A DNA stretch of 64,000 nt from Acidobacteria bacterium RIFCSPLOWO2_12_FULL_66_21 (GTDB taxonomy: Bacteria > Acidobacteriota > Vicinamibacteria > Vicinamibacterales > 2-12-FULL-66-21): the NCBI GenBank assembly GCA_001767455.1, contig MELC01000014.1, positions 1-64,000 on the forward strand. The letters run 5' to 3'. A program made the translations under genes and the position numbers. Of the stretch, positions 42,505-45,387 are shown in pieces. The notes beneath the pieces are model-generated. The model ran no database searches, had not been told where the DNA came from, and saw nothing but the letters and a program-made list of their open reading frames with translations. Position 1 is the first letter of the stretch; each line of letters begins with the position of its first letter.

Positions 42505-42532
42505 TTGCACCTTGCACCCCGTTTGGTATCAT
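42505..42532 (+). promoter_or_regulatory. Promoter of the sigma factor / STAS operon
   Basis: TTGCAC (42505-42510), a 16-bp spacer and TATCAT (42527-42532). The -10 overlaps an ATG at 42531, which rules that ATG out and favours the start at 42576. Confidence 0.55.
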
Positions 42533-42575
42533 GCCTGCCAAGTCTCCCCAGAGCGACCGTACACGACACTTACGC

Positions 42576-43211
42576 ATGTCCGTTGATTCCTCCGCCGTCC
42601 AGCCGGCCACGCCCGACGCGCTCATCGAGCGGTGTCTCACCGGCGATCAGACGGCGTGGGATGCGATCGTCCGCCAGCACTGGCGGAAGGTCTTCAACGT
42701 GGCGTACAAGTTCGTGGGGCGGCACGACGAGGCCGAGGACCTGGCGCAGGACATCTTCCTGAAGATCTTCAAGGCCCTCGACACGTTCGATCGGCGGGCG
42801 AACTTCCAGACGTGGATCATCAGCATCAGCCGCAACCTGTGCATCGACCACTACCGCAGCGTGCGCAAGGAGCGGCAGACGATCGCGCGTGAGGTGGACA
42901 CGACCGCCCTGCAGCCGGCGTCGAGAGAGCGGACGCCGTACGCGCTCGCGGAGCACCAGGACCTGCGGGTGATGCTGCGCGTGGCGCTCGAGAAGCTGCC
43001 GCTGACCCTGCGGACGGCGGTGGTGCTGCGCGACCTGCAGGAGCTGTCGTACCAGGAGATCGCCGACCGGCTCGGATTGCCGGAAGGGACGGTGAAGTCG
43101 CGGATCAATCGCGGCCGCATCGAGCTGGCCCGCCAGCTCAAACGGATTCAGGACAAACAGCCGGGGCGGCGCGCCCGCGTGCGGCCCCGGCGGCCCGGAG
43201 TGATCGAATGA
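42576..43211 (+). CDS. ECF-like RNA polymerase sigma factor
   Basis: A 211-residue sigma-70 family protein. Region 2 has YKFVGRHDEAEDLAQDIFLK and TWIISISRNLCIDHYRSVRK; region 4 has LRTAVVLRDLQELSYQEIAD and PEGTVKSRINRGRIELARQL. The basic C-terminus (GRRARVRPRRPG) is short. No transmembrane anti-sigma factor follows; instead a STAS protein is coupled by a 4-bp overlap. Confidence 0.9.
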   Translation: MSVDSSAVQPATPDALIERCLTGDQTAWDAIVRQHWRKVFNVAYKFVGRHDEAEDLAQDIFLKIFKALDTFDRRANFQTWIISISRNLCIDHYRSVRKERQTIAREVDTTALQPASRERTPYALAEHQDLRVMLRVALEKLPLTLRTAVVLRDLQELSYQEIADRLGLPEGTVKSRINRGRIELARQLKRIQDKQPGRRARVRPRRPGVIE

Positions 43212-43549
43212 ACCTCACGACCGAACACGCGAACGGCGTCGCCGTCATCAGGGTGGGCGAATCCCGGCTGATGTATCCGCTGCTGTCGGAGTTCTCCACG
43301 GCCGTCACCGACCTGCTCGCCGCCGGGGAGCGCAAGGTCGTCGTCGACCTCTCGTCCGTGGCCTATGTCGACAGCGCCACGATCGGCTGCCTGATGGATC
43401 TCTATCGCCAGGCCGCGGCCGCCGGCGGCGCGCTGAAGCTCGCCGGCGTCCAGAAACGCGTGGAAACGATGCTCACGATGACGGGTGCGCAGAACTTCAT
43501 CGAGGTGCACCCCGACGAACCTTCCGCCGTCAAAAGCTTCGGAGCGTAG
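43208..43549 (+). CDS. STAS-domain anti-sigma factor antagonist
   Basis: A 113-residue single STAS domain of the SpoIIAA/RsbV type. VVVDLSSVAYVDSATIGCLM carries the phosphorylatable Ser region (about 45-64), and GGALKLAGVQKRVETMLTMT follows. Such proteins bind a partner-switching kinase. No such kinase is in the window, so its partner is elsewhere or is unusual. Confidence 0.88.
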   Translation: MNLTTEHANGVAVIRVGESRLMYPLLSEFSTAVTDLLAAGERKVVVDLSSVAYVDSATIGCLMDLYRQAAAAGGALKLAGVQKRVETMLTMTGAQNFIEVHPDEPSAVKSFGA

Positions 43550-43551
43550 CG

Positions 43552-43818
43552 ATGCGCACGATCACCCTGACCAACGGCGCGAAACTGGCCCTCGACGGCG
43601 ACCTGCTCGCCGTCCTCGAGTCGCTCTACTTCGAGGTGACCGCCAAGCGCGAGCTCGAGCGCACCTTCGAAGACATGGTCCGCGAGATCCAGCACGTCAT
43701 CGACCAGATGACCGACGACGAGCGGCGCCAGTACTTGTCCGAGAGCCTCTTCCTCAACGTGGTCTCGTACGAGAACGAACGGCTCGGGGCGTACATGAAG
43801 AAGCTCACGAAGAAGTAG
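43552..43818 (+). CDS. Small conserved-looking protein, unknown function
   Basis: 88 residues, starting 2 bp after the STAS gene. It begins MRTITLTNGAKLALDGDLLA and continues with charged helices (FEDMVREIQHVIDQMTDDER). No family recognised. Tight spacing suggests it shares the sigma/STAS operon. Confidence 0.7.
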   Translation: MRTITLTNGAKLALDGDLLAVLESLYFEVTAKRELERTFEDMVREIQHVIDQMTDDERRQYLSESLFLNVVSYENERLGAYMKKLTKK

Positions 43819-43819
43819 T

Positions 43820-43928
43820 CAACTCCAAAGGCCAAAGTCCAAATTCCAAAGGCACTTCAAACTCCAAACTTCGAATTTGAAATTTGGAGTGGCTTTGGAG
43901 TTTGGAGTTTGGAGTTTGGAATTATCGC
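43820..43928. repeat. Facing TTTGGAG heptamer arrays
   Basis: CTCCAAA/TCCAAAG units (43821-43870) face TTTGGAG heptamers (three tandem copies around 43896-43916) about a central TTCGAATTTGAAA. This fills the gap before the radical SAM gene. Confidence 0.8.
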
Positions 43929-43932
43929 TGAC

Positions 43933-45294
43933 ATGTCCCTCAACTATTTGGCCACCCGCTTTACCTGTTCCTGGCCGTGGAGCACGATGGTGCTGCTCTG
44001 CGACGGCCGGATGGTGTGCGGGTGTGCGGATCCGTATGCCAAACGGGTGCTCGGCGACGTGCGCGCGGAACGGGTGTCCGCGATCTGGACCGGCGCGCGC
44101 GCGGCCGGCCTCCGGCAGGACCTGAACGGCGGCGGATCGAAGTTCTGCGGCGACTGCCCGCTGAAGCTGCCGCTCAGGAAGGACGAGGCGCCGCCCCGGC
44201 GGTCGCTCGACGTCCCGGCGCTCCCCTCGCGGCTGTACGTCGAGTGCACGGCGGCCTGCAACATCTCCTGCGCGCAGGCGTGCTGCGCGCCGGAAACGGG
44301 CATCACACGCACGCGCCAGGCCGGCATGCTGGATTTCGATCTGTTCCAGCGTGTCGTCGACGAGGCCGGCCCCGCGCTCGGGCGCGTCGACTTCTTCAAC
44401 TACGGCGAGACGTTCCTCCACAAGCGCGCCGTCGAGATGTGCGAGTACATCAAGAGCCGCTTTCCTCACATCTACCTGTACACCAGCACGAACGGCCTCG
44501 CCCTGACCGAGCCGCAGGTCCGGCGGCTCGTCGCGTCCGGGATCGACGAAGTGACGTTCTCGATCGACGGCGCGACGCCCGAGAGCTACGTCAAGTACCG
44601 TCAGCGTGGAGATTTCTCCAAGGCCATCGCCACGCTCACGGCCGCCGCGGACGAAAAGCGCCGCGCGGGACGCGACGTGCCGTTCATCAACTGGCGCTAC
44701 ATCCTGTTCGCGCACAACGACAGCGACGAGGAGATGGCCCGTGCGCGCAGGATGGCGGAGGACATCGGCGTCGATCGTCTGTGCTGGGAGCTGACGGATC
44801 ACCCGGAGGAGATGTACTCGCGGCGGTTCGTGCCGGACACGCCGGACCTCGCGGCGATCGAACACGAGGTGTGGGACGCCAACAATCTCGGCAATGCCAT
44901 CCCCGGCGCAACGCCGCGCGCGGAGATTTCCGTGGACCGGGTCCTGCCGATCCTGCCCATCATCGCGCGCCGCGGGCGGCAGACGACAATCGCCACGGTG
45001 GTCCGGAACGCGTCGACGCGCCCCTTTCCCGCGCAGGCGAGCTACGGCCGGCGGCTGGTCCGGCTCGGCGCCCAGCTCTGCGCCGCCGACGGAACCGTCA
45101 TCAACCGCGACTACGAGCGCGCCTGGCTGCCCGAAGCCCTCCAACCGGGCGCATCGGCGCAGGTGCCCATCACGCTCACCGCTCCCGCCACGCCGGGACG
45201 CTACGCCTTGAAGTTCGATCTCGTCAGCGAAGGGATCGACTGGTTCGAGGCGTGCGGGTCACCGACGACGGTGAAAGCGCTGGTCGTGATCTGA
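43933..45294 (+). CDS. Radical SAM protein with N-terminal SPASM-like domain
   Basis: A 453-residue protein from ATG 43933 (MSLNYLATRFTC). Residues about 12-75 look like a SPASM cluster domain (CSWPW, LLCDGRMVCGCADPY, AIWTGARAAGLR, FCGDCPLKL), which normally follows the catalytic core. The core (about 90-310) has VECTAACNISCAQACC, whose cysteines are spaced CX3CX3C rather than CX3CX2C, then FFNYGETFLHK, YTSTNGLAL and VTFSIDGATPESY. The C-terminus (about 330-453) is an Ig-like domain (ATVVRNASTRPFPAQASYGR, LPEALQPGASAQVPITL). The substrate is unknown. Confidence 0.85.
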   Translation: MSLNYLATRFTCSWPWSTMVLLCDGRMVCGCADPYAKRVLGDVRAERVSAIWTGARAAGLRQDLNGGGSKFCGDCPLKLPLRKDEAPPRRSLDVPALPSRLYVECTAACNISCAQACCAPETGITRTRQAGMLDFDLFQRVVDEAGPALGRVDFFNYGETFLHKRAVEMCEYIKSRFPHIYLYTSTNGLALTEPQVRRLVASGIDEVTFSIDGATPESYVKYRQRGDFSKAIATLTAAADEKRRAGRDVPFINWRYILFAHNDSDEEMARARRMAEDIGVDRLCWELTDHPEEMYSRRFVPDTPDLAAIEHEVWDANNLGNAIPGATPRAEISVDRVLPILPIIARRGRQTTIATVVRNASTRPFPAQASYGRRLVRLGAQLCAADGTVINRDYERAWLPEALQPGASAQVPITLTAPATPGRYALKFDLVSEGIDWFEACGSPTTVKALVVI

Positions 45295-45387
45295 GAAATT
45301 GGTGAATTGGTGAATTGGTGAATTGGTGAATTAGCTGGTTGGCGAATCGGTGGAATTCACCAATCCGCCAACCCACGAATTCACCAG
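45295..45387. repeat. Facing GGTGAATT arrays between convergent genes
   Basis: Four tandem GGTGAATT octamers (about 45300-45333) face inverted AATTCACCA units (about 45353-45386) between the radical SAM and lpxC stops. A bidirectional terminator function is plausible. Confidence 0.8.

Follow-up and report, generated by a model that had tools for sequence, protein, structure and literature searches.

The canonical core motif of the radical SAM superfamily is CX3CX2C, and this spacing is described as usual, not universal, in radical SAM enzymes (e.g., PMC9012708). The same paper describes the SPASM/twitch domain as a C-terminal extension of the radical SAM core, and BtrN as an enzyme with a CX3CX2C core motif (C16, C20, C23) and a four-cysteine auxiliary cluster that performs a two-electron oxidation. 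Both BtrN and BlsE act on sugar-like compounds (PMC9012708). For SkfB, the twitch layout is given as a hairpin and a helix, with ligands that follow strand 2 and the helix, and a C-terminal twitch strand beta1' packs beside core strand beta1 (PMC6231123). Another paper writes the NifB motif both as CX3CX3C and as CX3CX2C.

The protein described here is encoded in a window of 64,000 nt, i.e., the whole stretch of DNA that was analyzed, from Acidobacteria bacterium RIFCSPLOWO2_12_FULL_66_21 (contig MELC01000014.1). It belongs to the radical SAM superfamily by profile, but its core motif is spaced differently from the usual one and its SPASM/twitch domain is not C-terminal (Table 1). The open reading frame of 453 codons and a stop was confirmed as first annotated, as was its position next to the sigma/STAS/88-residue genes with a gap of 114 bp. 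A possible start codon (M, V or L) is found at the start in all compared homologue rows but L057 and L060. Relatives occur at 61 loci with identities of 44-81%, and dN/dS values of about 0.16 and 0.20 against two relatives indicate purifying selection; the gene is therefore not a chance reading frame. An origin from phages or plasmids was rejected, as a phage collection gave no match to the radical SAM protein (rSAM), no relative was present among 44 viral-contig candidates, and the plasmid matches (13 records) were all partial with less than 34% identity.

Table 1. Positions in the window of the rSAM gene, its domains and its upstream neighbors.
Feature	Position	Strand	Basis
Sigma-70 family (ECF-like) sigma factor	42531..43211	+	Pfam; synteny
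STAS-domain protein	43208..43549	+	Pfam; synteny
o88, 88-aa protein, upstream neighbor	43552..43818	+	Synteny; profile counts
SPASM-first radical SAM protein (rSAM), 453 aa	43933..45294	+	ORF; Pfam; relatives at 61 loci
N-terminal SPASM/twitch domain, aa 12-76	43966..44160	+	Pfam; cysteine conservation; predicted model
Radical SAM core, aa 104-244 (Pfam span)	44242..44664	+	Pfam
Core cluster motif C109-N-I-S-C113-A-Q-A-C-C118 (CX3CX4C)	44257..44286	+	Bases; conservation
C-terminal FW/NBR1-type Ig-like domain, aa 326-453	44908..45291	+	Structural matches; Pfam under cut-off

The cysteines of the core form the string C105-TAA-C109-NIS-C113-AQA-C117-C118, and their conservation was compared among 98 distinct homologues, the window protein included. 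This sample consists of frames of >=300 aa which span model position <=15 to >=300, and places L103 and L128 outside it. C109 is kept in 97, C113 in 98 and C118 in 94 of the 98 rows, and the complete triad is found in 93 of 98 (93 of the 94 having C118). C105 is kept in 64 rows, while position 117 is a cysteine in 69. In 65 of the 94 rows with C118, C117 accompanies it as a tandem cysteine, while in four rows the cysteine at 117 is itself the third of the triad and closes a shorter loop. Two of these loops have two residues (CX3CX2C; L090, the same gene as L100, and L230) and two have three (CX3CX3C; L091 and L092, the same genes as L101 and L102). All 30 rows below 55% identity have Pro instead of C105, and at position 117 they have Val in 23 cases, Cys in six (the four short-loop rows included) and Ala in one. 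Since C105 and C117 are variable while C109, C113 and C118 are conserved, the family motif is, judged from these sequences, CX3CX4C, with a loop two residues longer than usual. The initial annotation had instead proposed a CX3CX3C core, but this would use either C105 (C105-C109-C113) or C117 (C109-C113-C117), which are replaced in 34/98 and 29/94 homologues, respectively. Its observation that the core does not have the CX3CX2C spacing stands, and sets the protein apart in its own genome: among 36 PF04055 matches including this gene, 30 others were examined and all 30 have CX3CX2C. The GE motif position 159 is Glu in 89 and Asp in nine of the 98 rows, and other core residues are also kept.

The sole change of C109 is found in genus g4, where one rSAM copy (L053/L085) has a Tyr at this position and another has an in-frame stop (L083, of which L061 is probably a second record). 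As both changes occur in the two g4 genomes, they suggest that the rSAM is decaying there. L061 was excluded from A1 because of its in-frame stop and retained as a broken fragment in the 59-row count, before which three contig-end fragments were removed.

The initial annotation also placed the auxiliary domain before the core, and the profiles agree. SPASM (E = 3.4e-7, 30.9 vs. a cut-off of 21.5 bits) and Radical_SAM (PF04055; E = 2.9e-10, 41 vs. 29.5 bits) are both over their Pfam cut-offs, and both were detected in 27/27 aligned members. The SPASM domain is found N-terminal of the core and not as the C-terminal extension typical of SPASM/twitch enzymes. In this domain C12, C29 and C72 are kept in 98/98 rows, C75 in 97/98 (one gap), C31 in 96/98 and C23 in 90/98, and C12, C29, C72 and C75 are the likely candidate ligands of an auxiliary cluster. 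The predicted model has strands at 18-22 and 26-28 and a helix at 55-65, followed by C72-x2-C75, and this order fits the twitch layout described for the SkfB structure. Since beta1' of SkfB lies beside core strand beta1, at the N-terminus of the core, an N-terminal twitch domain could fill the same spot.

The AlphaFold model, built from a 27-row alignment, has a mean pLDDT of 85.2 and a pTM of 0.82, and its core is a radical SAM barrel fold (VIA-align; LIAS Z 12.6, SuiB 11.8, BlsE 11.7). The top core match is human lipoyl synthase (rmsd 4.1, 233 aligned), which is within a near-tied group, and the PDB match lists are led by common radical SAM and Ig-like folds without picking out any single function. 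Residues 108-112 and 114-127 of the cluster loop have pLDDT values below 50, and the model can therefore not place the cluster ligands. For the tail, Pfam N_BRCA1_IG (PF16158) at 357-433 is under its cut-off (22.1 vs. 28 bits) and found at E <= 0.01 in 9/27 aligned members. The predicted tail aligns to the ILRUN FW domain over 106/108 residues (VIA-align; Z 10.3, rmsd 2.9), and Foldseek matches it to NBR1 (4ole, E = 1.8e-7). Glycoside hydrolases are listed by Foldseek with similar E-values, but with rmsd values of 14-18 over long alignments. According to the model, the tail is Ig-like and closest to FW domains. This agrees with the Ig-like module of the initial annotation, whereas its suggestion of an envelope-type element is not supported, given the likeness to FW domains and the lack of any signal peptide seen by eye. 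The window copy of the tail was the only one found in a search of its own genome.

The SPASM-first order is wider than the CX3CX4C family, with CX3CX2C relatives in Acidobacteriota and one alphaproteobacterial plasmid gene with CX3CX2C, SPASM-first by eye. SPASM-first relatives have CX3CX2C in L100, L103, L128 and L230-L233 and CX3CX3C in L101 and L102, and they differ from the window protein in their shorter cluster loop and, except for L230, in having no FW-type tail (by eye). Their order was assigned by Pfam for L230, L100 and L103, with L101 just under the cut-off, by likeness to L101 for L102, and by eye for L128 and L231-L233. L231 (1100-4204) is a SPASM-first radical SAM protein (SPASM by eye) fused to a class-III aminotransferase. 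Other relatives of the phylum (L234-L244 and L002) share a related core and SPASM-like domain, but have CX3CX2C and a C-terminal SPASM (order by eye and script).

The tree of these proteins was built from the core without loop residues in 50 rows, with L103 (branch 2.81) left out and the root not fixed. The rows outside the family are matches from one phylum plus two plasmid records, several branches of the tree are long, and the incomplete row L125 was given no domain order. In this tree, all 13 SPASM-last rows are separated from the window protein by the same branch (96/91), and the rows with CX3CX4C, 29 in number, group together (95/92), with two changes in loop length and one in domain order. 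When L103 is included, the CX3CX4C rows are not one group and CX3CX4C needs two changes. In one scenario, SPASM moved to the front of the core and the loop then grew from two to four residues, with a separate three-residue branch, which would have produced a class of CX3CX4C enzymes. Such enzymes might have an altered SAM geometry and perhaps generate another radical from SAM or carry out a novel reaction with surface glycans, under sigma-STAS control in one order. We consider this course of events improbable. The wider clade, with loops of two, three and four residues, is a natural series for the loop tolerance of SAM cleavage and for any effect of domain order on the auxiliary cluster.

The upstream protein o88 is predicted to be mostly helical and matched no Pfam family at E <= 0.01 and no PDB fold at E <= 0.001; its own genome has only the window copy. 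It is conserved along its whole length without a variable core, and some rows have one cysteine, none of them conserved. Counting only rSAM matches of about 1e-104 or better, which leaves aside weaker and tail-only ones, rSAM is found in 82/162 and o88 in 137/162 genomes of the host's order. Nearly all rSAM genomes (81/82) have o88 somewhere, and in 70/82 it is upstream on the same strand, within 117 bp in 67/70, within 202 bp in 69/70 and at 2074 bp in one. A Fisher test of this association takes no account of how the genomes are related and carries no weight here. At the 61 rSAM loci, o88 and STAS are upstream in 49, and the sigma factor as well in 46 of these; among the 12 others, one has merely 17 bp of upstream sequence. 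In addition, 56 genomes of the order have o88 without rSAM, and all 18 such loci examined have lysA (by eye), sigma factor, STAS, o88 and LpxC in the same order. The sigma-STAS-o88 unit persists without rSAM, which is its optional last member. In two of the 56 genomes (G409:C92 and G413:C60), a tail-only match lies directly downstream of o88, and this possible remnant suggests that the rSAM was lost rather than never present. The neighborhood of LpxC was rejected as a functional clue, as lpxC adjoins the unit in 18/18 loci without rSAM and in 28/61 with it. In the class of G083, rSAM is found in 26/142 genomes and o88 in 0/142 at E <= 1e-5, an empty search that is weak evidence.

Two repeat structures flank the rSAM gene. 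The gap after o88 (43821-43923) has an A+T-rich near-palindrome with 48-nt arms, 81% complementary, with TTTGGAG-type repeats, a pattern with five matches in the window compared to zero expected. Between rSAM and lpxC (45297-45386) there is a tandem array of the 8-mer GTGAATTG with an inverted partner.

We think that the protein may work like a SPASM/twitch enzyme. By analogy, it could be an active cytoplasmic radical SAM enzyme with a permuted twitch domain, a CX3CX4C core cluster and one auxiliary cluster, which oxidizes a sugar-like substrate. We give this reading a probability of about 0.3, as the sequence matches behind the analogy have E-values between 1e-6 and 1e-5 and the gene context is scattered. 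C109, C113 and C118 would bind the SAM-cleaving [4Fe-4S] cluster, and residue 117 (C, V or I) would stand where CX3CX-phi-C has its aromatic residue before the third cysteine. A twitch-type domain on the N-terminal rather than the C-terminal side of the core would hold one auxiliary [4Fe-4S] cluster by C12, C29, C72 and C75, as in BtrN. This cluster would take the electron left after hydrogen abstraction, and the proposed outcome is a net two-electron oxidation. The substrate would most likely be a sugar, nucleotide-sugar or glycan intermediate, and the FW-type tail may assist the reaction. The sigma-STAS-o88 unit probably sets when the rSAM is made.

A sugar substrate is weakly supported by the nearest PDB sequences, BtrN (1e-6) and BlsE (1.2e-5), both matched through the core, and by glycan genes at two loci. 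At L068 (L130 is the same locus) a GT4-type glycosyltransferase and a sugar transferase are beside rSAM, and at L098 a polysaccharide deacetylase overlaps it by one base. LPS-heptose-type genes (by eye) adjoin rSAM at L099. However, the BtrN match to the SPASM part alone is not significant (i-Evalue 23 and 22), BlsE is named a decarboxylase and not an oxidase, and most relatives examined have no glycan neighbor. The gene contexts vary within the class of G083, where one genus has Roadblock/GTPase genes beside rSAM; at L096 (1523-3933) and L133 (6317-8724) the relative lies directly behind Roadblock/LC7 and small-GTPase genes. Other outlying loci share no neighbor, and no substrate gene is common to all contexts examined. 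Lipoyl synthase at the top of the fold list also speaks against sugar oxidation, as do the best listed NCBIfam models, which are metalloenzyme maturases.

These models, W_rSAM_matur (TIGR04317; 2.7e-24) and rSAM_Geo_metal (1.1e-19), would fit a role in the maturation of a metallo-cofactor or metalloenzyme, as known from the maturases of tungsten oxidoreductases. Yet they cover the core only, score 85.9 of 380 and 70.9 of 400 bits, and none of the seven neighboring genes tested (two labeled by eye) is an oxidoreductase. We consider maturation improbable. Another alternative that we consider improbable is that rSAM acts on proteins or peptides, o88 being the substrate or its carrier, as for SPASM peptide maturases. 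While the close upstream position of o88 would agree with this, its presence in 56 genomes without rSAM and its even conservation, with neither a conserved cysteine nor a variable core, weaken the case for a RiPP-like substrate, and the 26 rSAM genomes in the class of G083 point the same way as far as an empty search allows. A third alternative, improbable as well, is that SAM is no longer cleaved and that the altered cluster, fully ligated and with the tandem cysteines C117-C118, lets the sigma-STAS module sense redox state or iron. The non-canonical loop, the frequent tandem cysteines and the linkage to regulators speak for such a sensor. Against it, the module is kept without rSAM, the more distant rows have Pro at 105 and mostly Val at 117, and position 159 stays Glu or Asp with other core residues kept. 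A SAM-cleaving sugar-type oxidase is our preferred reading.

Compared with known families, none of the 25 listed NCBIfam models (of 34 matches) reaches its cut-off, and even the strongest, W_rSAM_matur, is far under it. In open-licence PMC, we found no radical SAM text with CX3CX4C or C-X3-C-X4-C, no CxxxCxxxxC among the matches listed, no text with 'N-terminal SPASM', none on an ECF sigma factor and STAS domain in Acidobacteri-, and no description of a SPASM-first layout with CX3CX4C. The new subfamily suggested by the initial annotation is in line with the lack of a named NCBIfam model at cut-off among the matches listed, but the SPASM-first order is not unique to it. Searches based on CX3CX2C or on a C-terminal SPASM would misread this family. 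The protein resembles BtrN in its radical SAM core and in one twitch domain, for which four candidate cysteine ligands are predicted from sequence, and differs from it in the reversed domain order, the CX3CX4C motif and the extra FW-type tail.
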